Shown here one piece after another: positions 10,190 through 38,937 of a stretch of 64,000 nucleotides of DNA. The stretch spans positions 41,470 through 105,469 of IMG/VR virus record IMGVR_UViG_3300022391_000001; one strand, given 5' to 3'. The position numbers and the translations under genes are program-made. The notes beneath the pieces are model-generated. The model was given only the letters and a program-made list of their open reading frames with translations. It was not told the DNA's origin and made no database searches. Position 1 is the stretch's first letter, and each line of letters opens with the position of its first letter. This DNA is from a virus.

Positions 10190-10524
10190 GATTTCCTGTT
10201 CACCACCCGGCGTTGACCGGTGGCTTTGGACCAGAAGCGCTCCGCCACCTCGGGCCCAACCACCTCCTCAAGCCGCCGCTTGTGCACCAGTTGGACTCCC
10301 TTGACAGGGTCCTGTTCCAAAGGATAGGAGCCCATCCAATCGACCAAACACCCTCCGGCCAATATGGTGAAATCCTTGTAGTTGCCTTTTATCCCTTTGG
10401 ACACCATCAAGTCCCGGATTATCCGCGCGTTGGCGGTTGGAAGTGATGCCCGCTTCGCTTGGTTGCGGGCTCGGACTTTGGCCTTCAGCTCCCGCGCCTT
10501 CACCTTGATCCGTTCACAGCCCAT
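10186..10524 (-). CDS. Hypothetical basic protein, 112 aa
   Basis: ATG lies inside the end of the uracil-DNA glycosylase gene. Residues 1-30 form a strongly basic helix (KVKARELKAKVRARNQAKR), consistent with nucleic-acid contact. The rest is alpha/beta. No family recognised. Confidence 0.55.
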   Translation of the reverse strand: MGCERIKVKARELKAKVRARNQAKRASLPTANARIIRDLMVSKGIKGNYKDFTILAGGCLVDWMGSYPLEQDPVKGVQLVHKRRLEEVVGPEVAERFWSKATGQRRVVNRKS

Positions 10525-11116
10525 ATGCCAACATCCTTGCCTTCGCAATATCCTTGATCACACACTTGCGTGCCAGCGGATCACATGTACGCAACAAGAA
10601 CGATGGGTGGAAAGTGCAGATGGCTGGCCAAACGCCGATGTCCCCGGTCATCGTGATCATTTCCACATCCACCTTGCGCCCGGACCACTGGGTGATGTTG
10701 GTGACTCCGGCCAAACGCCGTGAAGCCACCTTGCCTAGCAACAGCATCGCCTTGGGCTTCAGCATGTTCACATAGGCCAAGAACCTTGGATGACACGCCT
10801 TGATTTCCAGCGGCGAAGGGTCCCGATTCATCGGTGGTCGACACGCCACGAGATTGACGATGAATGCTTGGTGCTCTTCAACTCCTGCGCTCTTGAAGCA
10901 GCGGTCCAACTCCTGGCCCGCAGGCCCTACAAACGGCTGCCCTAGCTCATCCTCGTGCGCTCCCGGAGCTTCGCCGACAACCAGGAGCTTCGCCGACGGA
11001 TTGCCCCGGCAGTGGACCACGTTTATCCGCCCCTCGTGGAGCTTGCACAGTTGGCAATTCTGCCAGTTGCGATTGATCCGACCCACGTCCTTTATGGTTC
11101 CCCGCGCCTTGCTCAC
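10514..11116 (-). CDS. Family-4 uracil-DNA glycosylase
   Basis: Removes uracil from DNA. GEAPG at residues 48-52 and the following ED-x2-G-x-PFVGPAG are the family-4 water-activating and pocket motifs; HPS near the C-terminus (FHPSFLL) is the leucine-loop motif. Cysteines 21, 24, 92 and 108 have the spacing of the 4Fe-4S ligands of this family. 200 residues is normal. ATGA overlap with the exonuclease gene. A phage encoding this enzyme presumably does not use uracil in its own DNA. Confidence 0.85.
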   Translation of the reverse strand: MSKARGTIKDVGRINRNWQNCQLCKLHEGRINVVHCRGNPSAKLLVVGEAPGAHEDELGQPFVGPAGQELDRCFKSAGVEEHQAFIVNLVACRPPMNRDPSPLEIKACHPRFLAYVNMLKPKAMLLLGKVASRRLAGVTNITQWSGRKVDVEMITMTGDIGVWPAICTFHPSFLLRTCDPLARKCVIKDIAKARMLAYGL

Positions 11117-12743: not shown

Positions 12744-13073
12744 TCACACGCTCCTGTGGATGCTGTTCTCCGTGGTGAATCCCGCCGGATATCGGCGGCG
12801 GAGCTTGTCGATATTCTCTGCGACGATATCAGCAAAGTGCAAGTTGCTTTGGCTGGCCAACTCTGCTGTGTACCACATGATGTCGCCAAGCTCCTTGGAT
12901 ACATAGTCTGGATCAAATGGATGACCGTGGTACAAGTGCTTTTTGAGGTGGTCCAGAAGCTCACCCACCTCACCGGCCAACCCCATCGAGGTGTTGGCCA
13001 GTAGCTCCCGCTTGTTCAGCTCCGGATTGCGGGTCCTGGATGCCAGCTCTTGATACTCGTTGAACTCCATCAT
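12744..13073 (-). CDS. MazG-like NTP pyrophosphohydrolase
   Basis: All-alpha nucleotide pyrophosphohydrolase that hydrolyses NTPs or dNTPs to monophosphates. The metal ligands are visible: E35 and E38 in AGEVGELLD, and E61 and D64 in ELGDIMWY. At 109 residues it is a single-domain form. ATGA overlap with the resolvase gene fixes the start. It may clean noncanonical nucleotides or tune the pool, in parallel with the fused enzyme encoded at 29697-30635. Confidence 0.85.
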   Translation of the reverse strand: MMEFNEYQELASRTRNPELNKRELLANTSMGLAGEVGELLDHLKKHLYHGHPFDPDYVSKELGDIMWYTAELASQSNLHFADIVAENIDKLRRRYPAGFTTENSIHRSV

Positions 13074-13849
13074 TTCTTGCCTTTCGCCAAACAACATTTC
13101 CTTGAACCGCACACGTCGCAGACGGGCTCGTCATGCGGCGTCGGCACCCCGTCCGGATTCTCAATCCACTCCCGGCTGAGCAGATTGATTGGATAGGTCT
13201 TGGTTGTGCGGTTGAACACCTGTATCTCTTTGGGGTGCAAGTCATCCATCCGGAGCTTCCCTGCCCGGAGCTGCACCTCAGTCCAGACCAATTGCGCGAC
13301 CACATAAGCGTCTGCGAGGTCTTCACTGGTTTGGGTGTTGACCTTGCCGGACTTGGCCGGCGGCGGATTGAGCGGCGAGAAGTCCGCGCCCCATCGCTCC
13401 TGCACCGCTCGCTCGATGGCATCCTTGTGGCAGGTCCCGTCGTGAGCGCCGAACATCTTGACCGTGGTCGGATCAGGAAGTCTGATCTTGAATCCCCGGA
13501 ACCAACACAAGATCCGAGCGATGCCGCCCGCTTCGCCCATCTGATGCGCCCCTTGCTCCGCCCGCAGAGCATAGTCCTCAATCCCCACATAGGCGGCATC
13601 GGTGCGCATCAACACCCTCTTGTCCAAGTAGTGCTCGATCCAAGCCAGTCGGATCATTCCCCGCACGTGCTTGTCCTTGCTCCGATCCATCTGCTGGATG
13701 GGCAACCGCTCCCCTCGTTTGGACCTTGCCGCCGCTCCGGCGATGTCGGTCCAATACCAGAAGTTGCTCAGCTCGCCATCGGTGAGCTCAACCGCCGCTC
13801 CGTGATTCAGTGCGATGTCCATCCCGAGCACTTTGGTTTGATCTCTCAT
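13070..13849 (-). CDS. RuvC-like Holliday-junction resolvase
   Basis: RNase H-fold nuclease candidate that would resolve recombination junctions before packaging. LGMDIALNHGA puts the first catalytic Asp at residue 11; VGIEDYAL supplies the Glu of strand 4 and SEDLADAYVVAQLV the C-terminal acidic pair. A CDVC-x4-CC cluster ends the protein, an extra not usual in RuvC. Start set by ATGA overlap. Neighbours are SbcCD, RecA and the flap exonuclease. Confidence 0.75.
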   Translation of the reverse strand: MRDQTKVLGMDIALNHGAAVELTDGELSNFWYWTDIAGAAARSKRGERLPIQQMDRSKDKHVRGMIRLAWIEHYLDKRVLMRTDAAYVGIEDYALRAEQGAHQMGEAGGIARILCWFRGFKIRLPDPTTVKMFGAHDGTCHKDAIERAVQERWGADFSPLNPPPAKSGKVNTQTSEDLADAYVVAQLVWTEVQLRAGKLRMDDLHPKEIQVFNRTTKTYPINLLSREWIENPDGVPTPHDEPVCDVCGSRKCCLAKGKK

Positions 13850-21206: not shown

Positions 21207-24200
21207 TTATGCAGCCCGCGCATGTTTGGCTGACTTTTTCAGGAGCTTGATCGCACCGTTGTTCAAGAAATATTGCCAACTTTTCCTGTCTTTCTTGCGA
21301 TCTAGCTGAATTCGGAGATGATTGCCCGCCTTGATGTGCTTCTTGGCACTCGCGTCCCATGCCGACGCAAAGCAGATCACATCGATGTAGTTGCCAATCC
21401 CGTCGATGATGCCAAAAAAGGCCATTTCATTGCTGTTCTTGTCGTACTTCAACCGCACATGGGTAATGACCCCGGTGAACCAACTGCTCAACCCGAGTTC
21501 AAAGAGCTGATTGGTGATCGCGCTGGCGCGAAGCGTCGTGACCACTTCGCCCTCCGCGCCCTTGTATTTGATCTGCTTGTCGGCCCAAGGGTAGGACACC
21601 GACGGGTGCTGGCCTGCTATGATGCGCTCCCAGACAGTCAGCGGTGCCCCCTCGTTCACCTTCTTGCGGTACACTTCCAGATCCAATAGGAAATGGGCGC
21701 GCAAATTCTCATACCGCGCATTGGCCGACGCGTGAACCACCACCGGGGTCCCAACGCCCGCGTCAACCACCTCACGGAAGTCATCAAAGATGTCAAAGTC
21801 AACCTTGATCCGGTTCTGCTTCCCGCCGACATCCTCCACGTTGACATTCGCATACCTCGCTCCCCAGAACATGTCCCGCCGCTCTTCAGCAGACGGAAGC
21901 TCCCCTGTGTGAAAGTCCCCCACCTGGTTGTACTTCACCTCCACAACAACGCCGACGATGAACACTCCGGCTCCGTCGTTGTTCACCCAAAAGTCTTCAT
22001 CGCTCATGGCGGCGATTGGAACCTTGATGTTCTTGGAGATGAAGTCCCCGTATGCATCAACTGGATGCTTCCCAAAGGCCAGAGGGTTGACCTGGGACGC
22101 GATCAACTGCCGCTCTTCATCGGCATAGTCGGGCTCCGCCGCCCATTGCTTCAGAAGCTCCCGAAGCCCCTCCTTGTCCTTCTTGTTGTACACCTTCCAG
22201 AAGTCTTCAATGCCCTCGATGAACTGCTTGATATTGGGCAACATCTCATCGAGCGCTCCCGCGCGGGCCAGCGCCAAGACCACGCCCTTGTGACACTTGC
22301 GCCGGTCCACGCGGGCAAGGAAGTCAAACAGCCCCTTGTAAGGTTGATTCTCCATGATCGTTGTCGCCGCCGCTTCACCAACACCCTTGATGTCAACCAA
22401 ACTCCCCCGGATGGCCCTGCGTCCCGAGTCAATTGCAAACTGCTTCTTGGACATCGACACAGAGGGTGGCAGCAGCTCGATGTCGTGGCGCTTGACATCC
22501 TTTGCGATCTGCTGGATGCGGAGCCGCTGCGGCTCGTTCTTGAGCAGCGCCCAGTAGAATTCAAGCGGATACTTCCGCTTGAGCCACATCCCCCAATAGG
22601 CGATAACTGCATAACATACAGCGTGAGAGCGGTTGAATCCATAGCTGTTGTGTGATTGAAAATATTGAGGATTTGCACCTTTGGAACAGACCAAATAGTT
22701 GGCTAATTCACCACCGTGCTCACACTCGATGTCCCACATCGACTCCACGCCGATATCTCGGACTTCAACCACAACGGCGGAGCTTCCCAACGCCAACATC
22801 CTCACGCCCGGATACAGATCATTGGCTTTCATCCACCCTTTGTCGGTATTCCACCAATGATCTGGAGAGCAAGCAAGAGTCTGGCCGCCTGTGAGCTTGA
22901 TGTCGAATTGCCGACGCACGCCCGTCCTAGCAACCGTCTTGACTCTGTTTTCGGTTGGCCGCCCCTCGGAATCCAAGGACACGATTGAATCGCCTGGCTT
23001 CAAGTCGCTGATTGCTTTCGTTTCAGCCTGTAACTCCGAGAATAATGCATCGAACACATGTTCTTGCTGTATGTGACTCTGCCGCACCCCAAATAAATGC
23101 ATATCGGCTCTTGCCGTTTTGAGCCCTTCAGATGATAGGATGTGTGCGGCCCTCGTGCTGTTATCTCCAGATTGTCCAGAGTGTTGTTCGTCGTGTCGCC
23201 GTCGATATGATGCACCATCTCTCTGGACAACAGCTTCCGACCAATCATCTTTTCCATGGCCACTCTGTGCTCCAGCTCCCAGCCATTCTCCGTCTTGATC
23301 GTCAAGTAACCATTCTGCTTCCCCTTGTCGCCAATTTTCTTCTTGCAAGTTGGCGCGCCGCGCTCCGTTGTCAACTCTAAATTGTCGATGTCGTTGTTCA
23401 TCGGATCGCCGTCCTTGTGGATCACTTGCTCCCGATTTGTCAACCGCCGGCCTATCTTCTGCTCCATGAGCCATCGATGCTCTCTCACCCATCCCCTCTT
23501 TGTCTTCACATCCATGTATTTGCCGTCGCGTCGGCGGCTCCCTATTGGCTTGGCTTTCGGCATCCTCTTGACTCCCGTTGTCGTTTCGTTTAGCTTCTAA
23601 CGAAACGACAACGCAAGAACAAGAGGGCAAACAACCAAAAAAAGTTATCGCGTCCATCACCCGCCCAGCGGTCTTGGCGTCCATACCGCAAGTTGCCTTC
23701 GCGCCCTCGATGAAATTTTGACGCTCCTTGCCAATAGTCTCGTCGCCCCACTTCTTTGCGATCTTTTTCCTGAGTGAGTCAGCGGTGGCCGGAGGGAACC
23801 CGGCGACCTGTGTGAAAATCTTCAGCACATGCTCCTGGTACACGATGATCCCGAGGGTGTCCTTGGTGATCTCATCTACCAACGGGTGGCCAAAGGCTGA
23901 CTTCTTGATCAGCTTCGGGTCCTTTTTGCGCGCCACGTACTGGGTGGCCAAGCCCGAGCGTGCGGTGCCCGGTCGATTCAGCGCTGTCATCGCAGCGATG
24001 TCTTCAAAGTTGTTGAACTCAACGCCTGAGCAAATCTTGTCGGCGCCCGGGGAATCGTATTGGAAGATCCCCACATAGTCATGGTCTGTGAACCCCTGGA
24101 GCACATCAGGCTCGTTGAGGTCCAACTTCTCCAAGTCGATGTCCACCCCGTGCCGCTCCTTGATCGCCTTCACGCAGTCGTTCAACACGGTCAGAGTCCG

Positions 24201-26078
24201 GAGCCCGAGCACATCGAGTTTAAGCAGCCCCATCGCCGCCACGCCATACATGTCGATGGCGCTGACCACGACATCCTTGCCCTCGTGCTTCCGGATCTCC
24301 AATGGAACCAGATCCGTGAGCGGCACCGGTGATGTAATCACCCCGGCGGCGTGTATGCCGAGGGTCTTGGCCATCCCCTCCAGCCGCTTGGCGTGACGGA
24401 GCACGTCTGGATACTTCGCGTTGAATTCCTGACACACCTTGAATTCAGCGAAGCTGTCCTCAATGGTCTGGCTGGCCCGCTCATCGCCGCTGCTCCGCTC
24501 GATGATCGAAGCGGTGACCGCGTTCACCTCGGCATAGGGCACGTCCAGGACTCGGGACACATCCTTCAGGCACTGCTTCCCTGACAGTTTACCCACTGTC
24601 GCGATCTGACACACCTTGTCGGCGCCATACTTCTCACGCAAGTGGTCGATGATCTCCTGGCGACGCACATCCTCAAAGTCCATGTCGATGTCGGGCATGT
24701 CGATACGACTGGGTGAGATGAACCGCTCAAAGATCAACCCGTGCTCGATGGGGTCCACGGAGGTGATGCCCAGCAGGAATGAGACGATTGAACCGGCGGC
24801 GGAGCCCCGCCCTGGCCCGCAGGCGATGTTCTGGCGTCGCACCCAATCATACAAGTCTCGGACCAGCAGGAAGTAACCGATGAACCTCTGCCGCTTGAGC
24901 GCCCCCAATTCCATCTTCAGACGGTCCCGGTAGATGGCGACGGCTTGGGCCGGCGGCATCTTCATCCGGCGGGCATAGGCGGCTGCCCGGCTCGGGATAT
25001 CCCGCCAGCTCCAACCTCCGATGCACAGCTCTTTCAGGTACTGATACTGCTGTGCATCTGTGGCGTCATATCCGCCATATTCACTCGGGAGCCGAAGCGC
25101 CGGCATCAAGCACGCGAAGCGGTCGATGTTGATGATCTTCGGCTCGATCATGCTATTGAACAGCAGAGTGTTGTCCAATGCCTCCTTGATGACCTTGTCA
25201 GACATGAATTCATGGTTATCTTGGAAGGCTGTCTTCATCTCCGCCCGAGTCCGGAGGTGAAACTCATTGTTGCCGAAGCGGAACCTGTCTGGGTTGGACA
25301 TCCTGTCCCCGGTCCCGATACAGAGCATCACCTCGTGGGCGTCGGCATCCTTCTGGTCGACATAGTGGGCGTCTTGCGTCGCCAACAGGCGTGCGTGCTT
25401 GCCCCAACGCTCCCGGAGATCCAATGCGAATTGGTTGGCCAACCGTTGATCGTCGATGGCGTGCGGTTGCACCTCCAGCCAGAGGTCTTCACCGAAGCGC
25501 TCCCGCAGCTTCTCGGCGTCGGCCAATGCCATCCGCTTCTTGCCCGTCGCAACCCGGTCGTTGATCGGCGATGACAAGCAACCGGTGGCAACCGCCAATC
25601 CGTCGCCGTGTTCCATCAGCGCCTTGAGGTCGATGCGCGGCTTGTAGTAGAATCCCTCTGTCCAGCCCATCGTGGACAGCCGATACAAGTTGCGGAGCCC
25701 TTCGGCGTTCTTGGCCCAGACGGTGATGTGCCACCGGTCCCGGATCCCCCAGTGCTCCTCATACCCCTTGACGGCGTTCTTGGCGTCGGCGCGATTCATC
25801 CCCTGGGTGATCTCCGCCCGCTCTTCAGGCGTGATCCCCTTGCGATGCATGTCCATCGCGACATAGAATTCAATCCCGTATATGGGCTTGACGCCGTGCT
25901 CCTGGCACTCCAACAGCTGCTGGTAATATCCGCGCATCGTGCCGTGGTCGGTGATCGCGATGGCTGGCGCTCCGCGCTCCTTGGTCGCCTTGACATAGTC
26001 GGCGACCTTGCCGCAACCGTCCAATTGGCTCATATCCGCGTGTACGTGCAAGTGGACAAAGTCTTCAGCCTTTGACAC
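21207..26078 (-). CDS. dnaE: DNA polymerase III alpha (DnaE) containing an intein
   Basis: Replicative polymerase of the C family; 1623 codons of which 1294 are host protein. PHP domain at the N-terminus (HLHVHAD, residues 9-15). Polymerase core with GPGRGSAAGS (421-430), PDIDMDF (462-468, two catalytic Asp) and GLLKLDVLGL (third Asp). After residue 815 an intein interrupts the protein before SYGFNRSHA; the fingers, HhH and OB domains follow. GTG start with GGAGGG upstream. No separate proofreading subunit was recognised nearby, so proofreading may lie in PHP or come from elsewhere. Confidence 0.92.
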   Translation of the reverse strand: MSKAEDFVHLHVHADMSQLDGCGKVADYVKATKERGAPAIAITDHGTMRGYYQQLLECQEHGVKPIYGIEFYVAMDMHRKGITPEERAEITQGMNRADAKNAVKGYEEHWGIRDRWHITVWAKNAEGLRNLYRLSTMGWTEGFYYKPRIDLKALMEHGDGLAVATGCLSSPINDRVATGKKRMALADAEKLRERFGEDLWLEVQPHAIDDQRLANQFALDLRERWGKHARLLATQDAHYVDQKDADAHEVMLCIGTGDRMSNPDRFRFGNNEFHLRTRAEMKTAFQDNHEFMSDKVIKEALDNTLLFNSMIEPKIINIDRFACLMPALRLPSEYGGYDATDAQQYQYLKELCIGGWSWRDIPSRAAAYARRMKMPPAQAVAIYRDRLKMELGALKRQRFIGYFLLVRDLYDWVRRQNIACGPGRGSAAGSIVSFLLGITSVDPIEHGLIFERFISPSRIDMPDIDMDFEDVRRQEIIDHLREKYGADKVCQIATVGKLSGKQCLKDVSRVLDVPYAEVNAVTASIIERSSGDERASQTIEDSFAEFKVCQEFNAKYPDVLRHAKRLEGMAKTLGIHAAGVITSPVPLTDLVPLEIRKHEGKDVVVSAIDMYGVAAMGLLKLDVLGLRTLTVLNDCVKAIKERHGVDIDLEKLDLNEPDVLQGFTDHDYVGIFQYDSPGADKICSGVEFNNFEDIAAMTALNRPGTARSGLATQYVARKKDPKLIKKSAFGHPLVDEITKDTLGIIVYQEHVLKIFTQVAGFPPATADSLRKKIAKKWGDETIGKERQNFIEGAKATCGMDAKTAGRVMDAITFFGCLPSCSCVVVSLEAKRNDNGSQEDAESQANREPPTRRQIHGCEDKEGMGERASMAHGAEDRPAVDKSGASDPQGRRSDEQRHRQFRVDNGARRANLQEENWRQGEAEWLLDDQDGEWLGAGAQSGHGKDDWSEAVVQRDGASYRRRHDEQHSGQSGDNSTRAAHILSSEGLKTARADMHLFGVRQSHIQQEHVFDALFSELQAETKAISDLKPGDSIVSLDSEGRPTENRVKTVARTGVRRQFDIKLTGGQTLACSPDHWWNTDKGWMKANDLYPGVRMLALGSSAVVVEVRDIGVESMWDIECEHGGELANYLVCSKGANPQYFQSHNSYGFNRSHAVCYAVIAYWGMWLKRKYPLEFYWALLKNEPQRLRIQQIAKDVKRHDIELLPPSVSMSKKQFAIDSGRRAIRGSLVDIKGVGEAAATTIMENQPYKGLFDFLARVDRRKCHKGVVLALARAGALDEMLPNIKQFIEGIEDFWKVYNKKDKEGLRELLKQWAAEPDYADEERQLIASQVNPLAFGKHPVDAYGDFISKNIKVPIAAMSDEDFWVNNDGAGVFIVGVVVEVKYNQVGDFHTGELPSAEERRDMFWGARYANVNVEDVGGKQNRIKVDFDIFDDFREVVDAGVGTPVVVHASANARYENLRAHFLLDLEVYRKKVNEGAPLTVWERIIAGQHPSVSYPWADKQIKYKGAEGEVVTTLRASAITNQLFELGLSSWFTGVITHVRLKYDKNSNEMAFFGIIDGIGNYIDVICFASAWDASAKKHIKAGNHLRIQLDRKKDRKSWQYFLNNGAIKLLKKSAKHARAA
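23000..23563 (-). CDS. Tandem-HNH homing endonuclease nested in the DnaE intein
   Basis: 187-residue protein read in a different frame from DnaE. Two copies of an HNH_3-type unit: EHRWLMEQKIGR with HKDGDPMNNDIDNLEL, and EHRVAMEKMIGR with HHIDGDTTNNTLDNLEI. A C-terminal Cys cluster (C-x5-C, C-x2-H with YSKNMCSMHY) resembles the zinc finger found beside phage HNH nucleases. GGGAG is eight bases before the ATG; the stop lies inside the continuing intein code. Likely drives homing into intein-free alleles. Confidence 0.88.
   Translation of the reverse strand: MPKAKPIGSRRRDGKYMDVKTKRGWVREHRWLMEQKIGRRLTNREQVIHKDGDPMNNDIDNLELTTERGAPTCKKKIGDKGKQNGYLTIKTENGWELEHRVAMEKMIGRKLLSREMVHHIDGDTTNNTLDNLEITARGPHTSYHLKGSKRQEPICIYLGCGRVTYSKNMCSMHYSRSYRLKRKQSAT
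23577..23612. promoter_or_regulatory. Perfect hairpin before the nested HNH gene
   Basis: Stem GTTGTCGTTTCGTT and its exact complement AACGAAACGACAAC, 14 bp, with an 8-base loop. On the mRNA it ends directly before the GGGAG ribosome binding site of the HNH gene and lies within intein codons for VVVSLEAKRNDN. It could tune translation of the endonuclease or mark an insertion boundary. Confidence 0.8.
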
Positions 26079-26128
26079 CCGATCCCTCCAATCGGCGGCG
26101 TGTATATCCTACCAAACCACTCGGACGT

Positions 26129-26716
26129 TTATTCGCCCAACCTTGATAGGACTGCGCGCGCCGCGTCGCCTTTGACCACGTTGGTGGTTGTGATATGGCA
26201 CTTTGGAACCGTGATGGAGCGCTCGAACATCAGCGTGAACAGCCGGTCCAGTGTTCTCCAATCGGCCTGCGATGGGAACCACCTCCCCTCGCAGCGCCGC
26301 TTACAAACGTCATAGGCGGCGGTCATCCAAACGTACAGCACATCGCCGCCCTGCTGTGTCATCAGCTCCTGCCAGAATCCCACCAATTTGCGGCTCGCAG
26401 ACAGGTCCTTGTAGTAACCATCCAGATGGTTGTGAAGCACACCATAGGCGACAGCGGAGGGCAGCGAGCGGTCCAATATGACGTTTGCTCGGAGGGTGCC
26501 TAGCAGGTCTGCCGTGAAAAGATCCTCGATGTGGCAGTTCAGAGGTATCCGGAAGTCATCCCTGAGCACTCGCTCCGCGTCGCCCTCGTGCCCCCAATGC
26601 AGATCGGAGTTGCCCCGCCTGAACGGCCGATACACCGGCCATTCAAGCCACTGCGACAGCTCCTGGGCACAAGATGACTTGCCAGTCCCGTTGAGCCCCT
26701 CCAATATGATGATCAC
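26129..26716 (-). CDS. P-loop nucleotide or nucleoside-phosphate kinase
   Basis: GTG start at 26716 makes a GTGA overlap with the aminotransferase stop and gives the N-terminus VIIILEGLNGTGKSS, the P-loop. LDRSLPSAVAYG is the DR(S/T) motif of thymidylate/deoxynucleotide kinases. 195 residues is normal. It differs clearly from the second kinase at 38042-38665. It could phosphorylate dTMP or a modified pyrimidine nucleotide, or hydroxymethyl-dU in DNA as in some hypermodifying phages. Substrate cannot be told from sequence. Confidence 0.75.
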   Translation of the reverse strand: MIIILEGLNGTGKSSCAQELSQWLEWPVYRPFRRGNSDLHWGHEGDAERVLRDDFRIPLNCHIEDLFTADLLGTLRANVILDRSLPSAVAYGVLHNHLDGYYKDLSASRKLVGFWQELMTQQGGDVLYVWMTAAYDVCKRRCEGRWFPSQADWRTLDRLFTLMFERSITVPKCHITTTNVVKGDAARAVLSRLGE

Positions 26717-27990
26717 AGAGCCAACCCCTTGTGAACAGCATCCACCGCTGCCAATGCCCAAGCCAGATCATTCTCCGGGATGGTCAGCGGCGGTGTGAAT
26801 CGGATAGGCCCGAATTGCCGATGCGTGGCAAACAACAATCCGACTTCCCGCGCCCGATGGATGAACTGAAAACCGTCATATCCATAGGTGTGAAAGTCGG
26901 GCGTGAAGGCGTTGAGCATCCCGAAACCATCGACGCTGGCCACCCAATCATAGCCACCCAACACCGTCCGGATCATCTCCCCCCGTTTACGCACCATCGG
27001 CAAATTGGCATCCAACCATCTGAACATCTCCGCTGCCATGTGACAGACAAAGGGCGAGCCCCCGAAGGTGTTGAAGTGGACTCCTGGAGTGAACGCCTTG
27101 GCGACATCCTCCGACGCCAGCATACAGCTCATCGGGAAACCCATGGCCAAGCCCTTGGCCAGCGTCATGATGTCGGGCTTGACTCTGATCTTCGGGTGCT
27201 GCCACGTGGCGTGATAGCCCGCGCGTCCCGAGCCCGCTTGCACATCGTCATAGATGAGCAGGAAACTGTGCTGCTTGCGTATCCTGGCCAACTCTTGCCA
27301 GAATGCAGGCGGATATGTGTGCACAGTGTTGTTGCCCAAGACGGGTGCGAGAATGACGGCGGCGACTGTGTCCCAATCTGGCGCCTTGGGCTCGTGCTCG
27401 GCGCCGTCTGTAACCACCTGTTGGAGCACCAACTCATCTTCACGCCATCTAGGGTCCAGGACTCCGAAGCCAGCAGCGATGGGCCCAAACCCGTGGCGGT
27501 GATATGGACTGACTCGGAAGTCCCCGGCGGCGAGACTCAGACCGGTGCGCCCATGGAAGTTGCCTTCCATCGTCAAGATGCGGCGCCGCTCTTCATGCCC
27601 CCGGTCCCACCAATACTTGCGCGCAATCTTGATGGCTGCCTCGTTGGCTTCAGTCCCGCTGTTGGAAAAGAAGATCCTGTCCATCTCCGTGCGCTGGCAA
27701 ATCAGCTCCGCCGCTTCCCAGCGCGTTGGATTGGGATAGATGTCAGGGAGCTGGTGCGGAGCCCCGGTGCCAAAGAATTTGAACACCGCCTGAAGAACCT
27801 CCGGCGTGTTGTAGCCCAGCGCGCAGACACCCTCATCCCCCCAGAAATCCAAAAGGCGTTGTTGCTTCTCAACATCCTTGACGGCACTTCCGGCTGCCGA
27901 TTCAACCGTTATCGGCAGCCGTACCACGTTGTTCATCAGACGGCCGTTGTACTTCTCGGTGTTGACCGTCGTGTCCTCATTCTGGTTCAT
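26713..27990 (-). CDS. Class III PLP-dependent aminotransferase
   Basis: Related to ornithine/acetylornithine and diamine aminotransferases. SGTEAN at residues 111-116, DDVQAG at 248-253 (usually DEVQ) and TLAKG with the PLP-binding Lys279. 425 residues, full length. The first ATG that overlaps the ThyX-like stop (ATGA) is chosen. Such an enzyme is unusual in a phage. In this operon it may feed an amine into base modification, but a metabolic or cell-surface role is also possible. Confidence 0.88.
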   Translation of the reverse strand: MNQNEDTTVNTEKYNGRLMNNVVRLPITVESAAGSAVKDVEKQQRLLDFWGDEGVCALGYNTPEVLQAVFKFFGTGAPHQLPDIYPNPTRWEAAELICQRTEMDRIFFSNSGTEANEAAIKIARKYWWDRGHEERRRILTMEGNFHGRTGLSLAAGDFRVSPYHRHGFGPIAAGFGVLDPRWREDELVLQQVVTDGAEHEPKAPDWDTVAAVILAPVLGNNTVHTYPPAFWQELARIRKQHSFLLIYDDVQAGSGRAGYHATWQHPKIRVKPDIMTLAKGLAMGFPMSCMLASEDVAKAFTPGVHFNTFGGSPFVCHMAAEMFRWLDANLPMVRKRGEMIRTVLGGYDWVASVDGFGMLNAFTPDFHTYGYDGFQFIHRAREVGLLFATHRQFGPIRFTPPLTIPENDLAWALAAVDAVHKGLAL

Positions 27991-28946
27991 CGGCCATCCT
28001 TTCTGGTGCCTGTCCAAGGATCCCTGCCCCAGAAGCGTTCATATTGCGTCGCACGCTCCATCATCTCCGCCTTCATCGGCACGTCCACGTTGCCCAATGC
28101 CAAGGGCAAGGGCTCCGTCGTCCATTCGCGGTTGAGATGGAGCGGACACGGTGGCAGCTTGTCGTCCCCGGTCAACCGGCGGCGGCATTCTTCTTTGTAC
28201 ACGCATCCCATGAAGTCATCTCCCGACATGCACGGCGGTGAGACCATCTCCCGGAATATGGGGTGAATCTTCTCGGCGCACTCGTTGATCATCCCCTCGA
28301 TGATGGGCCCCCAAATTCCAAGCTGCAAAATCCAACATCCCCGCTTGCCCACGATGTGCTGCAGCGCTGAGATGTTCAGCTTCCAGCTGATCCGGTGTTG
28401 CGCCCCCAACGGTATCAGCTCCCGAGCATCCTCCATCGGTATCCCTGCCGCCACCAGCGCGTTGTATCCCGCCTGAATCCGCTCCATTGTCGCCCTGTAC
28501 AAGTCAATGAGCGTGCTATCCGGATGTTGCTGAATTGTCAAGGGCAGCCGGTATGCCTCATTGGTGGCAAAGCTCCCCATGTCCTGGATGCGCATCGACT
28601 GAGACCACCATGAACTCTTGGCCAAATCAGGTATCTCATCCATCACTATGTCGGCGCCCACTCGCTCCGGCGAAGGGAGCGTGCCGATCCGATGGCGCAC
28701 CGCCTGCTCCCGCCAAGATACAGAGACACCCTCCAGCATGAACACGAGGTCCACGTGCTCGCCGATCGGGATGCGCTGGGCTATCACCGCCCTGAAGAGC
28801 TTTTCAATCTCTTCAGGGGCCACGTCCCGCTTGATCTCCGCCGGAGTCCGAAGCGGCTCCTCAGTCTTGCTGGCCTCCCACACGCTGTACACCAGCTCCA
28901 AAGGGTCCCGAGTCCAGGTCAGCAGGGTCACTTCCGGTTCATTCAT
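27987..28946 (-). CDS. ThyX-like flavin-dependent thymidylate synthase homologue
   Basis: ThyX makes dTMP from dUMP with FAD. The RHR motif is at residues 84-86 inside WREQAVRHR, but the following residues (IGTLPSPERV) do not keep the full RHR-x7-S pattern and are one shorter. ARELIPLGAQHRISWKLNISALQHIVGKR matches the C-terminal ThyX half, and an AQ/EI-type helix follows. At 319 residues it is longer than usual (about 220-250) with a Cys-rich tail (CMSGDDFMGCVYKEEC). It may act on a variant reaction such as hydroxymethylation; this is inference. Confidence 0.75.
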   Translation of the reverse strand: MNEPEVTLLTWTRDPLELVYSVWEASKTEEPLRTPAEIKRDVAPEEIEKLFRAVIAQRIPIGEHVDLVFMLEGVSVSWREQAVRHRIGTLPSPERVGADIVMDEIPDLAKSSWWSQSMRIQDMGSFATNEAYRLPLTIQQHPDSTLIDLYRATMERIQAGYNALVAAGIPMEDARELIPLGAQHRISWKLNISALQHIVGKRGCWILQLGIWGPIIEGMINECAEKIHPIFREMVSPPCMSGDDFMGCVYKEECRRRLTGDDKLPPCPLHLNREWTTEPLPLALGNVDVPMKAEMMERATQYERFWGRDPWTGTRKDGR

Positions 28947-29716
28947 CGCACAATCTCCTTGAATTCTCTCACCACTTTAACAGGCACCTTGTCCTGCACT
29001 TCTTCAATCTCCAACGCCCCTTGCGGAGCCCCCCGCTGAAGCAAGAACATCGATGACATCCGATGCCACGTCACCACCATAAGTGTGCCAAAGTCGTATC
29101 GCTCCTTGTATTTCCGAGCCACCACCCGAAAGTAGTCAGGCCAGTGATCAGGGTGCATCCCGATGGACTTGTGGTATGACGCCCGGTTCTTGGGGAATCG
29201 GGACAATCCGAAAATGGCGCTGTCGGTGATCGTCACCCACTTCTTGGACGCCTTGAAGATGGCGTCAACCGCGTCCATGTAGCGCTTCTCGGTCAGAAAT
29301 CGGTTGAATGTGAGCTGATTGAAATCGGCGTGCACCCAATCCCAATACCGTTTGGGTTGTTCACCGATGAAAGCATAAGAGTCTGTGACCCTGGCGTTCA
29401 CGTCCGGAAGCGATCGCTTGATGGACATCACGCAATCCTTCTCGATGTCCAATGCCAGGTGCGCCCTTGGTTTGCACAGCTGCTGGATGATGGAAGCGTG
29501 CCAGCCGGAGCCGCCAAACAGTTCCACCACGCGCCCCACCTTGCCCACCTTCTCGGCCACCTTTTGGAATGCGGCTAGCTCCGCGTGAATCTCATGCCGG
29601 CGGATGGCGTAGTGCGAGTGCGGAGCGTCCTTGCCGATCAGCGCCCGCTCTTCATCGCTCGATGAATCGCACACATACATGCGTTGGCCGCCCAGATCAA
29701 TCTCGGTGATGTTCAT
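28943..29716 (-). CDS. SAM-dependent methyltransferase-fold protein, 257 aa
   Basis: VVELFGGSGWHASIIQQL is a class I motif I (GxGxx), followed by an acidic residue in LALDIEKD and a motif IV-like HADFNQL. No DPPY/NPPY, so not a standard DNA-adenine enzyme. It overlaps both neighbours and belongs to the proposed modification operon. Substrate unknown. The ATG at 29716 follows AAGGG. Confidence 0.65.
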   Translation of the reverse strand: MNITEIDLGGQRMYVCDSSSDEERALIGKDAPHSHYAIRRHEIHAELAAFQKVAEKVGKVGRVVELFGGSGWHASIIQQLCKPRAHLALDIEKDCVMSIKRSLPDVNARVTDSYAFIGEQPKRYWDWVHADFNQLTFNRFLTEKRYMDAVDAIFKASKKWVTITDSAIFGLSRFPKNRASYHKSIGMHPDHWPDYFRVVARKYKERYDFGTLMVVTWHRMSSMFLLQRGAPQGALEIEEVQDKVPVKVVREFKEIVR

Positions 29717-30635
29717 CCCGGTTCCCTTCGATGGCTTCGGCGGCGCGTTTGACAATAGCAGGCCAATCAGACACCCGTTGAATCAGCCGCGTATCCTTCA
29801 ATTCCCTGTTGTATGGCCAATCCAATAACAGAACAGGCACACCTATGGACGCGACTTCCAGACAATGCTTCACCCGGTCCTCCACAAAGAAGGTTGGGCG
29901 CGCTGGAAAGATGTGCTCATAGATCAATTCTGCCTTGTCTTTCCCGAATAAAATCAAGTCATAGGCCATCCCGTGTTCTCTGAGCCAAAACATCGTATCG
30001 GCATACAGGTTCTTGTATTGCGCATATGGCCGTGCTGTCATCAACACGATCTTGAACCCGAGGTCCCGGATGGCTTGCGTTGCTTCAGAAGCCCCTCTTA
30101 TGGGCGGCAGCTCCCGGAATTGGCCACCCCTGTAGAAATCCTCCTTGAGCGATTCAAGCAGAGCGATGGTCCGATCGTTCATTGGGGCTCCGCCCTGGGC
30201 ACTGTTGAGTTTGTCTTGCCACTCGCTCAAATCGGCCAGGCAGTTGTCCACGTCGATGACAACCAAGCGGGTGGAAGTCTCCAGCGCCAAACGCTCCCCT
30301 CGGGCTCGATCATCGACCACCGCCGACTTCCGCATGAACGAGTCATACAGCCCGTCGGAGTCCACCCCGTACAGCTGCGCGATTGCAATCAGATACTTGA
30401 GCACATCGGCGGCTTCATCAGCCAAATTGACCTGCTCCACGGGTCTGCTCCGGAGCACATGCGCCTTGAAGTGCGTGGCGACCCGCATCAGCTCCGCTGC
30501 TTCTTCAAACATCCCCAAGGCCAAGTCCTTGGACACCCGAGCCCGGTCCATCGGCGACATCGCCGATGGGTCCAGGTTGAACGTCTCTTGCTGTCGCGCT
30601 TGGCGCTTGAACATCTCATCCCATCGGTCGGACAT
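29697..30635 (-). CDS. Fusion: NTP pyrophosphohydrolase + HAD 5'-nucleotidase
   Basis: Residues 1-110 are an all-alpha NTP-PPase (EEAAE at 44-48, DEAADVLKY at 73-81). Residues 120-300 are a HAD-type nucleotidase of the NT5C kind: DVDNC (128-132) is motif I, VLMTARP motif II, and FFVEDR motif IV. Together they could take a dNTP to dNMP and then to the nucleoside, removing a nucleotide from the pool. Start at the MSDRW ATG; overlap with the FAD enzyme gene is 20 bases. No break or frameshift was seen between domains. Confidence 0.8.
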   Translation of the reverse strand: MSDRWDEMFKRQARQQETFNLDPSAMSPMDRARVSKDLALGMFEEAAELMRVATHFKAHVLRSRPVEQVNLADEAADVLKYLIAIAQLYGVDSDGLYDSFMRKSAVVDDRARGERLALETSTRLVVIDVDNCLADLSEWQDKLNSAQGGAPMNDRTIALLESLKEDFYRGGQFRELPPIRGASEATQAIRDLGFKIVLMTARPYAQYKNLYADTMFWLREHGMAYDLILFGKDKAELIYEHIFPARPTFFVEDRVKHCLEVASIGVPVLLLDWPYNRELKDTRLIQRVSDWPAIVKRAAEAIEGNRDEHHRD

Positions 30636-31593
30636 CGAACCATCTCTCAGCCAGGTCAATCGCATCCTCCAACACCACATCCATGGTGGAGCGTGAATTC
30701 CATGTCGCAAATCGGCCCAGCGGTGCTATGTTATTTGGCCACTCGGGCTCCACTTCCAACGGCAGCAGATGCCCCTTCAACCCCTCCGTCACTTGATCTA
30801 TGGCCCACCCATCCTGAAAGATGAAATTGAGGTCAGAGTGCATCCTCGGGACATCCAACTGGCCGTTGATCTCCACGGAGTAGCCGGAGCCCGACGGCGA
30901 GAAACGGTGAACGGCGTCGGCAGGGGTGTACGGTGTGTACACATAGTCCCATTGGACGTATCGGTCCCGCAGGGGATGGACCTGGATGACGTTCAGCTTC
31001 ATCGCAACGCCCTCCGGCACATAGAAGTCAGCCATCCGACGCACCGCCCACAACGGAATTGTGACCACGCAGTAGTCATAGGGCACTGACACCCCTGATG
31101 CGGTCTGCAACGCACCACCCCGGATCCCCGTCACCGCCGTCTTCATCACCATGAGCCCACCGGCCAATTTCGTGATCACCTCTGGGAAGTGAGCCCGGAT
31201 GGCCTTGCGGGGCTTGGCTGCCGCCGGATCATTCATCGCCGTCGCTGCGGACTCCGCGTCCGCTTCTGTGCGTCGCGTCTTGCGGTAGTGATCGGCTCGT
31301 ATCCGGGCTGCCTCGGAGCCCGGAAGCGAGTGCAAATATTTGGGATAGGGATGCACCCCGCCGCGAAGCATGATCCCGCCTGAAATCGCATAGTCGCTGT
31401 AGACCACCCCCAATTCATCAAACAGGTTGATCATCCCGATGGTGTGGTGAATGTATTTGAGCCCTCCGGCGAGAAATTCCCCGCCCAAGGCGCCCGACTC
31501 TATCACCAGAACCTCCGCTTGCAGTCGCCTGAACACATACGACGCGATCAGTCCAGACATACCACCGCCGATGAGAACCACGCGCGGTTTCAT
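30616..31593 (-). CDS. FAD-dependent oxidoreductase
   Basis: Residues 4-34 form an FAD-binding Rossmann unit (VVLIGGGMSGL, then VLVIESG). GGEFLAGGLKYIHH resembles the amine oxidase/UDP-galactopyranose mutase class. 325 residues, shorter than typical amine oxidases (400-450). Some hypermodifying phages encode FAD lyases/oxidases acting on amino-acid-linked thymine; whether this protein does so is unknown. First gene of the 31.6-26.1 kb operon; GGGG precedes its ATG. Confidence 0.75.
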   Translation of the reverse strand: MKPRVVLIGGGMSGLIASYVFRRLQAEVLVIESGALGGEFLAGGLKYIHHTIGMINLFDELGVVYSDYAISGGIMLRGGVHPYPKYLHSLPGSEAARIRADHYRKTRRTEADAESAATAMNDPAAAKPRKAIRAHFPEVITKLAGGLMVMKTAVTGIRGGALQTASGVSVPYDYCVVTIPLWAVRRMADFYVPEGVAMKLNVIQVHPLRDRYVQWDYVYTPYTPADAVHRFSPSGSGYSVEINGQLDVPRMHSDLNFIFQDGWAIDQVTEGLKGHLLPLEVEPEWPNNIAPLGRFATWNSRSTMDVVLEDAIDLAERWFDVRPMG

Positions 31594-31645
31594 TGATTGC
31601 CCCAATTATTGTTGGATTAAAAGGCGGGTGACGCCGCTGATGGCC

Positions 31646-31659
31646 GGAAGTCAGCCATG
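31646..31659 (+). promoter_or_regulatory. Plus-strand copy of the conserved start region
   Basis: GGAAGTCAGCC-ATG on the plus strand inside the 122-bp gap (31594-31715). It is identical to the CobS and CobT start regions but points the other way, and opens a 37-codon frame (MKTHHRGATHAST...) to about 31770. On the plus strand TTGATT, 17 bp, ATTAAA could be a promoter. It may be a small antisense gene or a relic of rearrangement. Confidence 0.3.
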
Positions 31660-31715
31660 AAAACCCACCATCGCGGCGCCACCCACGCCTCCACCGAGCC
31701 CCGGACAAGGAAAGC

Positions 31716-32588
31716 TCATACTGGTGGAGGCAACCAGTTTAGTCTACCCTCACGGATCATCCGCCCGTAAACCTGCGCCACAAACCTCGCTCCGTCCTTG
31801 TCGTGATCTGAGGCACGAGAAGTGAAGAAACCATCGACATGCGGGGCCAAGTGGAGCTGTTTGAGTTCAGCTTGAGAAACACCCTTCCACTCCGTCGCTC
31901 GGAGCGGTGTCAAGACATCTACCAGCCCAGTCCGTGGCTTGAAGAGAACCAACGCCAATGGCTGGTCCCGCCCGCTCGATGTTCTCACATAGATTGACAT
32001 GTATTTGCTCTTCTTGCGCCTATCCGATGTGTACAGCCGTCCCGGCAAGAGCGCTTGGGAGCCCTTGGGATACTTGTACGGGATCTGCTCCAGCAACGCC
32101 GCTCGGAAGTGCTCAAAAATCTTGTAACAGTCCAACCGGTTGCGGATCGACAACGCCACCAGCGCTTCCGTCGCCGCGCTCTGCGAACAATCGCGTGGCA
32201 GCCGCTTGTTCTTGCGTCGCCCCTTCGCGCTGCGAATCATGTGTTTGCGTGGTGTTACCTTGGACGGATCCCTCTTGGACAATCCGCCCCGGATGCCCCA
32301 ACGCCGGATGACCTTGTCCAGCTCTTTCATGAACTCGGTGGCATCCTGCTTGGCGATGGCGTAATGATCCTCCACTCCGTCCACCTCGCACAGCTGGATC
32401 TCCACCAAATCGTCCGTGGTCTTCTTGCTTTCCCTCAAATAGATCTGGAAGGCAGCACAGTGGTTCCGCCACAAACAAGGCTCGCTCTGATCCGGATCTT
32501 CGTGCTCCGGTTCCCCGTCACAGGTCTCATCCCCACGCTCGTATTGCCCCACGCAGGGTGGCATGTATTTGTTGGCATCGTCGCTCAT
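31716..32588 (-). CDS. Hypothetical protein, 290 aa
   Basis: ATGA overlap with the sigma factor gene fixes the start (MSDDANKY). The N-terminal 50 residues have five cysteines in Cys-x2-type pairs (PPCVGQYERGDETC, then PCLWRNHC), possibly a zinc site. Basic residues at 110-135 (KHMIRSAKGRRKNKR) and an alpha/beta C-terminus follow. It might act with the sigma factor it is cotranscribed with. No family recognised. Confidence 0.6.
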   Translation of the reverse strand: MSDDANKYMPPCVGQYERGDETCDGEPEHEDPDQSEPCLWRNHCAAFQIYLRESKKTTDDLVEIQLCEVDGVEDHYAIAKQDATEFMKELDKVIRRWGIRGGLSKRDPSKVTPRKHMIRSAKGRRKNKRLPRDCSQSAATEALVALSIRNRLDCYKIFEHFRAALLEQIPYKYPKGSQALLPGRLYTSDRRKKSKYMSIYVRTSSGRDQPLALVLFKPRTGLVDVLTPLRATEWKGVSQAELKQLHLAPHVDGFFTSRASDHDKDGARFVAQVYGRMIREGRLNWLPPPV

Positions 32589-37022: not shown

Positions 37023-38042
37023 CTATGCCCTAAGTGCACGATCTTGTTGATACCGATCAGCCAACTTTCTTTGGGCTGAGGCCAATGAAGCGGCCAAGCG
37101 AGCACTCCGCCCACCGGTGTAGCGCTCCGCCGACTCAACCGCCATCCTTGCTTGGTTCCTAGTTGCCGAACCAGGGTCAACCCCATCCGGCAGGCGAGCA
37201 ATGTGGACCGATCCAAACCGACATGTGAGTTGTCGGGCCACGTCATAGGGCGCCGTCTGCTCTTCAGGGTCCAACATCACCGTGATTCCGGCGTCCACAG
37301 GCTTGGCCAACAACATTTCCAGCTGCTCTTTGTGAAGCACCTTGCCCATCAGGGCCAACGCCGGGATGCCGTGCTGCCATAACTTGATGGCGTCCAATGG
37401 CCCCTCAACCAATGCAACGTCGCCATCGAGCGGCGCGTGCTTCCACCCCAACAAAAGGCGCCCGTGGTTGGCGCCCGCTGGGTTCAGGTATTTCGGTTCC
37501 TGCTGGCCCGTCATGTCCCGAGCGGTGAAGCTCCGCCCGTTGGGACACTCGACAGGGATGATGAGACGGCACGCAAACCTGCCTGTGCGGGCCCAACCGA
37601 GCCCCCATTCACGTGCCGTCTCACGCGTCACCCCTCGCTCCCGCAGATACACCGGCATCTTCCATTTCCCTGCTCTGAAGACTGGTATGAACTCGGATGG
37701 AAGCTCCGTGTTCTGCTGAACCTCGGGCTGCTCGCCCCCTCGCATTGCCAGCAAGCGCTGAAGCAACGTCTGCGGAGTCCCTTGCCGCCGGAATTGGACT
37801 GCCCGCCGGAGGATGTATTGGCGTGCCTCGTTGCGGGTGATCCCCTCGACACGCGCAATCAATCCAACCAGCCAGCGTCCCCGCTCCTGGCACTTGAAGC
37901 AGATGTAGTGGCCCTCCTCAGCGTCCACGTAGAATCGGCCATCCTTGCCGCACCAAGGGCACCGCCCCACATACTGATTGGACCCGTTGAGCCTGGCGCC
38001 CTCGATGTGACTCTGACACCATTCTTTGACGTCAAACTGCAT
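37023..38042 (-). CDS. DnaG-type primase
   Basis: Makes RNA primers on the lagging strand with the phage helicase. Zinc ribbon CPWC (28-31) and CFKC (48-51); Toprim acidic motif VEGPLDAIK at 212-220 and MLDPE at 256-260. 339 residues, shorter than bacterial DnaG (about 580) and without its C-terminal helicase-binding domain of usual size. TGATG overlap with the kinase gene sets the start at MQFDVKEW; longer N-terminus rejected. Confidence 0.88.
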   Translation of the reverse strand: MQFDVKEWCQSHIEGARLNGSNQYVGRCPWCGKDGRFYVDAEEGHYICFKCQERGRWLVGLIARVEGITRNEARQYILRRAVQFRRQGTPQTLLQRLLAMRGGEQPEVQQNTELPSEFIPVFRAGKWKMPVYLRERGVTRETAREWGLGWARTGRFACRLIIPVECPNGRSFTARDMTGQQEPKYLNPAGANHGRLLLGWKHAPLDGDVALVEGPLDAIKLWQHGIPALALMGKVLHKEQLEMLLAKPVDAGITVMLDPEEQTAPYDVARQLTCRFGSVHIARLPDGVDPGSATRNQARMAVESAERYTGGRSARLAASLASAQRKLADRYQQDRALRA

Positions 38043-38665
38043 CAGCTGATCTTCGCTTGGACGGCTCTCACCGCTTCCATGATCGCCTTGTGGACCTGGC
38101 CAACTTCCGCGTCTGCATTGACGATCGGCCAAGTTTGCTTGCCGTGGATCTCCTGCTCCGCCATCCGCTTCCAGAACCACCGATAACGCTTCACCACCTT
38201 CTCCATCAACCCCGGTTGCTGCTCGTATCGGTCCCTACGCTCCGGCCGTCGCTCCGCTGAAACAGAGGGCTCCGCATCCAACAGAATATGGATATCGGCC
38301 TTGGGCAGATAAGCGTGCATGACCACGAGTTGACGGGAGTCCAATCCATCCTCCGCCCCATAGACCACGCCGGAGGGCCACCACCGATCGGCGACCGCAT
38401 TGACCATCATCTTCTTGGTCCAAGCGATCGTGTCCGCGTGCTCCATCTGATTGGCGAGCTGAAGCGCCTGGAACACCAGTGCGTTGGTCATCCCGTCGGC
38501 GTCGGGCTCCGCCCTCCACTCCCGATTCAGATGCGCATAGATCAGCTTCCCCACTGGCGTCTCAACATCCGGAAACTTGAACAGCTTTGCGTTCATCCGC
38601 TTCTTCAGCAGCTCCGCCTGCGTGGACTTCCCACAAGCGTCAATCCCTTCCAGCACCACAAACAT
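38042..38665 (-). CDS. Thymidylate-kinase-like protein
   Basis: P-loop EGIDACGKST at residues 6-15; DRWWPSGVVYG as the DR motif with a lid region (RPERRDRYEQQPG). 207 residues, typical of Tmk. Starts with the MFVVLEG ATG overlapping the upstream stop. Makes dTDP from dTMP or acts on another pyrimidine monophosphate. It is the second such kinase in the window and lies within the replication cluster. Confidence 0.85.
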   Translation of the reverse strand: MFVVLEGIDACGKSTQAELLKKRMNAKLFKFPDVETPVGKLIYAHLNREWRAEPDADGMTNALVFQALQLANQMEHADTIAWTKKMMVNAVADRWWPSGVVYGAEDGLDSRQLVVMHAYLPKADIHILLDAEPSVSAERRPERRDRYEQQPGLMEKVVKRYRWFWKRMAEQEIHGKQTWPIVNADAEVGQVHKAIMEAVRAVQAKIS

Positions 38666-38937
38666 CACTTGCTCCTGTTGATCGGAACGGAGCCTGTAGC
38701 CCAAAATCTGTATCGCGCATAGTCGCCCGGCCGGTCCTTGAACGCCAACAGCACTTCCGACGGATAGCGCTGCCACCGGTCCCGCTCTGACCCATGCATC
38801 CCGCTGGTCTTTGCGTACAAAAGCCCCTTCAGCTCCACTTGCTCCAACGTCAAGTGGGACTTCTCGCAATCATCCGCCGCTTCTCGGCGGCTGTAATGTG
38901 TCTCACAGACGTTGCAGATCCACGCTTCTTTGGGCAT
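38665..38937 (-). CDS. Hypothetical zinc-finger protein, 90 aa
   Basis: CNVCETHYSRREAADDCEKSH near the N-terminus is spaced like a C2-x-CH finger. The rest is short alpha/beta. It lies between the methyltransferase and thymidylate kinase genes with 35-base and 1-base overlaps. Function unknown. Confidence 0.6.
   Translation of the reverse strand: MPKEAWICNVCETHYSRREAADDCEKSHLTLEQVELKGLLYAKTSGMHGSERDRWQRYPSEVLLAFKDRPGDYARYRFWATGSVPINRSK

Follow-up and report, generated by a model that had tools for sequence, protein, structure and literature searches.

The stretch of DNA analysed here (the window, 64,000 bases) spans bases 41470–105469 of a 105469-base IMG/VR virus record from an uncultured phage and carries an operon that, judging from its gene content, most likely serves hypermodification at the nucleotide level with an enzyme set that differs from any described. 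It consists of six minus-strand open reading frames (ORFs) running from 31605 to 26129, which encode a flavin adenine dinucleotide (FAD)-dependent oxidoreductase, a fusion of a MazG-like nucleoside triphosphate pyrophosphohydrolase and an NT5C-type nucleotidase, an S-adenosylmethionine (SAM)-fold enzyme, a ThyX homologue, a class III aminotransferase dependent on pyridoxal phosphate (PLP) and a P-loop kinase. An earlier sequence-only reading had listed these six overlapping or near-touching genes at 26129–31593, and all are present where it placed them; position 31593, given there as the end, is an ATG inside the flavoprotein ORF, which may begin at 31605. The first two junctions of the operon overlap by ~20 nucleotides, and start and stop codons are shared as ATGA at the SAM/ThyX and ThyX/aminotransferase junctions and as GTGA at the aminotransferase/kinase junction. 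The module stops ~50 bases short of a DnaE-type DNA polymerase III alpha gene, upstream of which it lies.

The conservation of the module was followed by scanning 2.9 million viral contigs with ThyX, flavoprotein, aminotransferase, MazG-nucleotidase and polymerase queries, and lineages were counted as distinct, untruncated viral lineages (n=21). The flavoprotein, MazG-NT5C, ThyX, aminotransferase and kinase co-occur in 21/21, and because they do, the five-gene association is beyond chance. The SAM gene (5/21 lineages) is an optional member. While the content of the five-gene core is constant, its order varies (ThyX-aminotransferase-kinase, aminotransferase-ThyX-kinase or aminotransferase-kinase-ThyX), and in most lineages polymerase III alpha keeps its synteny with the module. 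In one lineage (L017) the locus with all five core genes has none of the other neighbouring genes of the window, and its aminotransferase identity is 26%; descent from a common phage backbone thus does not explain everything. Scanning reciprocally, 25 of 26 flavoprotein loci carry the variant ThyX (the remaining locus is cut by a contig end), and 22 of 25 aminotransferase loci lie on module contigs, the three outliers (L126–L128) being other enzymes in other contexts.

The ThyX of the module was correctly assigned to its family by the sequence-only reading, which had treated it simply as a homologue; it is, however, not canonical. It belongs to the Thy1 family (Pfam 3e-19, 69.9 bits vs a cut-off of 24.8) and falls short of the NCBIfam thyX equivalog level (53.8 bits vs 87.9). 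RHR and SxR are set apart by an insertion in each of the 31 variant rows, so that the compact RHRx2S...SxR motif is missing, and all 31 share a conserved C-terminal extension (PPC...C...PPC) whose three cysteines are invariant in a ten-row alignment. RHR, SxR and both arginines that correspond to substrate sites of the T. maritima enzyme are retained, and the flavin/dUMP (deoxyuridine monophosphate) motifs are kept. The tree splits the variants from canonical ThyX by a 99/97 branch, to which long-branch warnings apply. By its sequence features, the module ThyX is a non-canonical, distinct subfamily.

The aminotransferase shows a comparable departure from its relatives. Its assignment to class III, as in the sequence-only reading, stands (Aminotran_3, 2e-67, above the Pfam cut-off); it matches the acetylornithine aminotransferase profile (3e-97), remains below the argD equivalog score (233.8 bits vs 410), and its nearest families are acetylornithine, succinylornithine and putrescine aminotransferases. 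The PLP lysine and the GR of HGR are present in 25/25 module aminotransferases. Both glutamates of the substrate-gating motif EPxQGE are replaced in 25/25 copies (by A/S/T and N/H/S) and are kept in two viral class III controls. Because these glutamates are lost while the PLP lysine is kept, the substrate is probably not acetylornithine or ornithine, unlike that of ArgD.

For the flavoprotein, the sequence yields a Rossmann motif only, with GxGxxG and a C-terminal GR motif conserved. Its AlphaFold model (predicted local distance difference test, pLDDT, 89) has T. cruzi UDP-galactopyranose mutase as the best Foldseek match (template modelling, TM, score 0.70), followed by NicA2, L-amino-acid oxidase and renalase, which supports a predicted flavin amine oxidase/UDP-galactopyranose mutase fold and agrees with the FAD oxidoreductase originally proposed. 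The SAM gene, too, was read as its predicted structure suggests: the model (pLDDT 82) matches spermidine synthases and methyltransferases, supporting a class I SAM fold from which the reaction is not assignable. A spermidine synthase function was considered and rejected, since the protein has GGSGW in place of GGG(D/E)G and TM scores reach only ~0.4.

The two remaining core proteins would, by their families, act on free nucleotides. The proposed pyrophosphohydrolase/nucleotidase fusion holds up: the NT5C domain is above the Pfam cut-off (4e-8), and the MazG domain is below it (0.008) with its EE..E/E..D residues largely conserved in the alignment; PDB profiles match human cytosolic deoxyribonucleotidase and MazG-like proteins. 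Across 10 lineages the HAD catalytic set of NT5C is in place, with DxD, R, K and ED invariant and T nearly so. The kinase is thymidylate-kinase-like (Pfam 0.004, PHROG 761 4e-14, PDB profile 1e-11, with SPbeta YorR and thymidylate kinases among the PDB matches); its P-loop and DRS motif are conserved in the alignment, and it scores 22 bits where the NCBIfam equivalog level requires 83. The P-loop kinase of the sequence-only reading therefore stands, but its comparison with base kinases acting on DNA is not supported, given the thymidylate-kinase profile matches and no match to the 5-hydroxymethyldeoxyuridine (5-hmdU) DNA kinase family in the full record or 13 relatives. By sequence it is a deoxynucleoside monophosphate (dNMP) kinase type, the second in this phage beside a canonical thymidylate kinase.

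Such a gene set might simply serve ordinary nucleotide supply, with ThyX making thymidine monophosphate (dTMP), the kinase phosphorylating it, MazG-NT5C balancing the pools, and the aminotransferase and flavoprotein being incidental metabolic genes. ThyX, MazG and thymidylate kinases are indeed common in phages, and the persistence of the flavin/dUMP motifs in the ThyX family would fit. Yet a dTMP-type deoxyribonucleotidase beside a dTMP maker would be self-defeating, the phage already has its separate canonical thymidylate kinase, and for ThyX, aminotransferase and flavoprotein alike the module has subfamilies of its own, which are fixed jointly in 21 lineages. We regard this explanation as unlikely.

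At what level, then, would a modification be made? In M6, ViI and PhiW-14, complex C5 uracil modifications are likewise made with a kinase, PLP enzymes and FAD enzymes, and PLP and flavin enzymes are reportedly part of thymidine hypermodification pathways (Lee et al. 2018/2022, as cited in PMC11955845). In a post-replicative route of this kind, a DNA kinase would phosphorylate 5-hydroxymethyluracil in DNA, an amino-acid-derived group would be attached, and PLP/flavin enzymes would trim it. Those pathways, however, work on DNA via the HMUDK and ADDT (aGPT-Pplase) families. Searches of the full 105-kb record and of 13 relatives, fragments among them, detected neither the 5-hmdU DNA kinase (HMUDK_hel, PF18723) nor the amino acid:DNA transferase (ADDT, PF18724), and both were detected in the PhiW-14 control (2.8e-27 and 4.3e-12, respectively). 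The module kinase is moreover dNMP-kinase-like, and we consider a post-replicative route highly improbable. ThyA (PF00303) has no match in the phage, with the control matched in 9/14 genomes. Since HMUDK and ADDT are absent and the replicative polymerase has next to it a nucleotide kinase together with a fusion that would destroy dNMPs and dNTPs, the pathway most likely acts on mononucleotides before replication. Of the pyrimidine hypermodification island first proposed, the idea of a dedicated island unlike the described sets is supported by inference, as are, by their families, the enzymes that would remove normal dNTPs and dNMPs (deoxynucleoside tri- and monophosphates), ThyX in place of a ThyA-type hydroxymethylase and the lack of aGPT-Pplase, now extended from the window to the full record and its relatives; the likeness to DNA-kinase phages is not. 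The spread of the module, the distinct ThyX subfamily and a link to SP-15-like phages go beyond that proposal.

This link comes from the ThyX variant, which recurs in a second module type. Type II modules contain a deoxyribosyltransferase (PF05014) and a YfbR-like 5'-deoxynucleotidase, followed by the variant ThyX and DNA polymerase A; some also have a radical SAM enzyme ahead of the ThyX, and in three of the loci (L029, L032 and L035) a radical SAM/SPASM enzyme adjoins the variant ThyX upstream. The only full-length and closest cultured relative of the window ThyX, aligned over 89% of the protein, is that of Listeria phage LIS04, a member of the variant family. LIS04 is taxonomically grouped with SP-15, and its ThyX is syntenic to SP-15 gp130, beside a deoxyribosyltransferase. 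More than half of the thymine of SP-15 is replaced by 5-(4,5-dihydroxypentyl)uracil, with gp130 proposed as the dUMP-modifying enzyme (PMC5977210), and the title of reference 43 in that paper has the hypermodified uracil made as a triphosphate. Going by PMC5977210 and its references 42–43, SP-15 and LIS04 would resemble the module in a Thy1-family enzyme proposed to modify dUMP and in the synthesis of a modified uracil as nucleoside triphosphate, with SP-15 gp130 only marginally similar in sequence; SP-15 resembles type II modules in combining a deoxyribosyltransferase and a deoxynucleotidase within one genome. Both phages differ in lacking the module aminotransferase, and the stretches of SP-15 examined carry no annotated amine-oxidase-type flavoprotein or MazG-NT5C fusion.

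Taken together, we think it fairly probable that the operon makes a C5-modified dUMP before replication that replaces thymidine in virion DNA, and the modified dUMP is probably aminated. We infer every reaction and product of this pathway from enzyme families. The variant ThyX would use methylene-tetrahydrofolate and FAD to place a one-carbon unit onto C5 of dUMP, ending in a hydroxymethyl or amine adduct rather than a methyl group. The side chain would be oxidized by the flavoprotein and left with a primary amine by the class III aminotransferase, 5-aminomethyl-dUMP being the simplest product and a longer aminoalkyl chain being equally allowed; in some phages only, the SAM-fold enzyme may add an alkyl group. 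The thymidylate-kinase-like enzyme would then form the diphosphate and a host kinase the triphosphate, for incorporation by the adjacent phage DNA polymerase, while MazG-NT5C would degrade competing dTTP/dTMP and probably dUTP. The fixed linkage of five genes, the private changes in ThyX and aminotransferase, the pyrimidine-type nucleotidase, the second dNMP kinase, and the lack of DNA-level enzymes and ThyA all favour this pathway, as do the recurrence of the ThyX variant in type II modules and LIS04 and, going by the title cited above, the synthesis of the SP-15 base as a triphosphate.

A variant of this pathway would build a larger side chain at the nucleotide level, following an SP-15-like logic with a different chain: the ThyX variant would join C5 to an amine such as ornithine or putrescine, whose distal amino group the ornithine-type aminotransferase and the flavoprotein with its amine-oxidase fold would then process. 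The relatives nearest to the aminotransferase and the amine-oxidase fold of the flavoprotein are in keeping with it. On the other hand, a motif EPxQGE without its glutamates points to a different substrate, and no chain-building gene was identified. We take the longer chain seriously and rate the variant less likely than not. It differs from the pathway above in its product only, and its likelihood is contained in that of the pathway.

Alternatively, the modified nucleotide might stay out of DNA and, in soluble form, inhibit host defence enzymes or act as a decoy for them. Defences directed at dNTPs exist, and the sequence is compatible with such a role. Against it speak the presence of dNTP-removing enzymes and the tight linkage to a replicative polymerase, which is polymerase III alpha in type I modules and polymerase A in type II, and we give this reading the least credence of all.

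Several points weigh against a C5-modified dUMP that replaces thymidine. The predicted flavoprotein fold usually goes with amine oxidation or flavin-N5 chemistry rather than with the oxidation of alcohols, which makes a hydroxymethyl-to-formyl conversion the weakest step of the pathway. NT5C may also attack dUMP, the presumed substrate, and dCMP is a possible substrate in its place. SP-15 gp130 is very divergent, its family link consisting of synteny and a marginal alignment (E 0.002). The module contigs were assembled from ordinary sequencing, so any modification cannot fully block polymerases. Finally, no cultured carrier of the full module was found: among cultured phages, a DNA-level search with the operon and tblastn with the flavoprotein and the SAM protein gave no match, and the aminotransferase matches in the phage collection are weak (~28–32%) and come largely from bacterial-looking or unannotated records. 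A genome-contig scan with the ThyX profile returned canonical ThyX only (~26–31%).

Two further systems offer points of comparison. SPO1-type phages synthesize hydroxymethyluracil at the nucleotide level and remove dTTP/dTMP, a logic that the module would share; it differs in lacking their ThyA-type dUMP hydroxymethylase and in adding a flavoprotein and an aminotransferase. In the wobble uridines of transfer RNA (tRNA), MnmE/MnmG carry out a folate- and FAD-dependent C5 aminomethylation, and flavin oxidase and SAM methyl steps follow with MnmC. The proposed pathway would be analogous in its chemistry, although the MnmE/MnmG-MnmC families are unrelated, act on tRNA and include no aminotransferase.

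Individual loci vary around the core. One operon (L011:5096-7921) has two diverged module aminotransferases, which suggests two amination steps or substrates. A NAD-dependent epimerase resembling UDP-sulfoquinovose synthase is inserted between ThyX and aminotransferase at L025:8765-10180 and may be a sugar decoration gene, and the sulfotransferase gene immediately after the module kinase of L017 (10488-11261) possibly serves further decoration. Two distant contigs (L137 and L138) carry the flavoprotein, MazG-NT5C and kinase with no ThyX or aminotransferase in view, and in L138 this set adjoins a DnaE-like polymerase. In L127 and L128 a class III aminotransferase has LuxE/LuxC-like acyl enzymes as neighbours, together with genes that resemble QueD, QueE and FolE; this may be a further island for nucleotide modification. 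L098 was not counted among the contigs with the module, because it has a canonical-like ThyX (Pfam 1e-32) and the search for an aminotransferase gave none.

Around the module of the window, the AT skew is near zero (0.005, -0.048 and 0.023 across 26001–32000) vs -0.1 to -0.35 in most of the window, which may be the sign of a cassette acquired as a unit. The polymerase gene contains an intein-like insertion, and an ORF that resembles HNH-type homing endonucleases lies at 23000–23563 (same strand, other frame); in several relatives the polymerase is shorter (~1284 amino acids) and lacks the insertion.

Table 1. Genes of the module and other features of the window (window coordinates; aa, amino acids)
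Feature	Position	Strand	Basis and remarks
FAD-dependent oxidoreductase, 329 aa, predicted amine oxidase/UDP-galactopyranose mutase-type fold	30616..31605	-	Motifs, AlphaFold, Foldseek; ATG possible at 31593
MazG-like NTP pyrophosphohydrolase + NT5C-type 5'(3')-deoxyribonucleotidase fusion	29697..30710	-	Pfam, PDB profiles, residues; start probably ATG 30635
Predicted class I SAM-fold enzyme, methyl- or aminopropyl-transferase-like, optional member	28943..29755	-	AlphaFold, Foldseek; start probably ATG 29716
Variant ThyX, 319 aa, insertion within RHR...SxR, Cys-containing C-terminal extension	27987..28946	-	Pfam Thy1 3e-19
Class III PLP aminotransferase, ArgD-like fold, PLP lysine retained, EPxQGE lost	26713..28017	-	Aminotran_3 2e-67; start probably ATG 27990
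Thymidylate-kinase-like nucleoside monophosphate kinase	26129..26761	-	PHROG, PDB profile, motifs; start probably GTG 26716
DNA polymerase III alpha (DnaE type), intein-like insertion, directly downstream of module	21207..26078	-	ORF, synteny, polymerase-based scan
Separate canonical thymidylate kinase, outside module	38042..38869	-	Pfam Thymidylate_kin 1.5e-17
Second MazG of the same phage	12744-13112		
Uracil-DNA glycosylase of the same phage	10514-11116		

As a broader and more tentative proposal, the module could represent a new class of pre-replicative hypermodification, in which a uracil nucleotide with an amine, made by the ThyX variant, flavoprotein and aminotransferase, takes the place of dTMP entirely, and the ThyX variant is an exchangeable starter shared with the deoxyribosyltransferase/radical-SAM pathway and SP-15-like phages. 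If the pathway is as we propose, it would constitute a second biosynthetic logic for thymine replacement, aminotransferase-based and working at the mononucleotide level, and would define a subfamily of ThyX whose product is probably not dTMP. It would also provide a genomic handle on the synthesis of modified uracil in SP-15-like phages, a question standing since the 1970s, and would predict restriction-resistant DNA for a group of uncultured phages.

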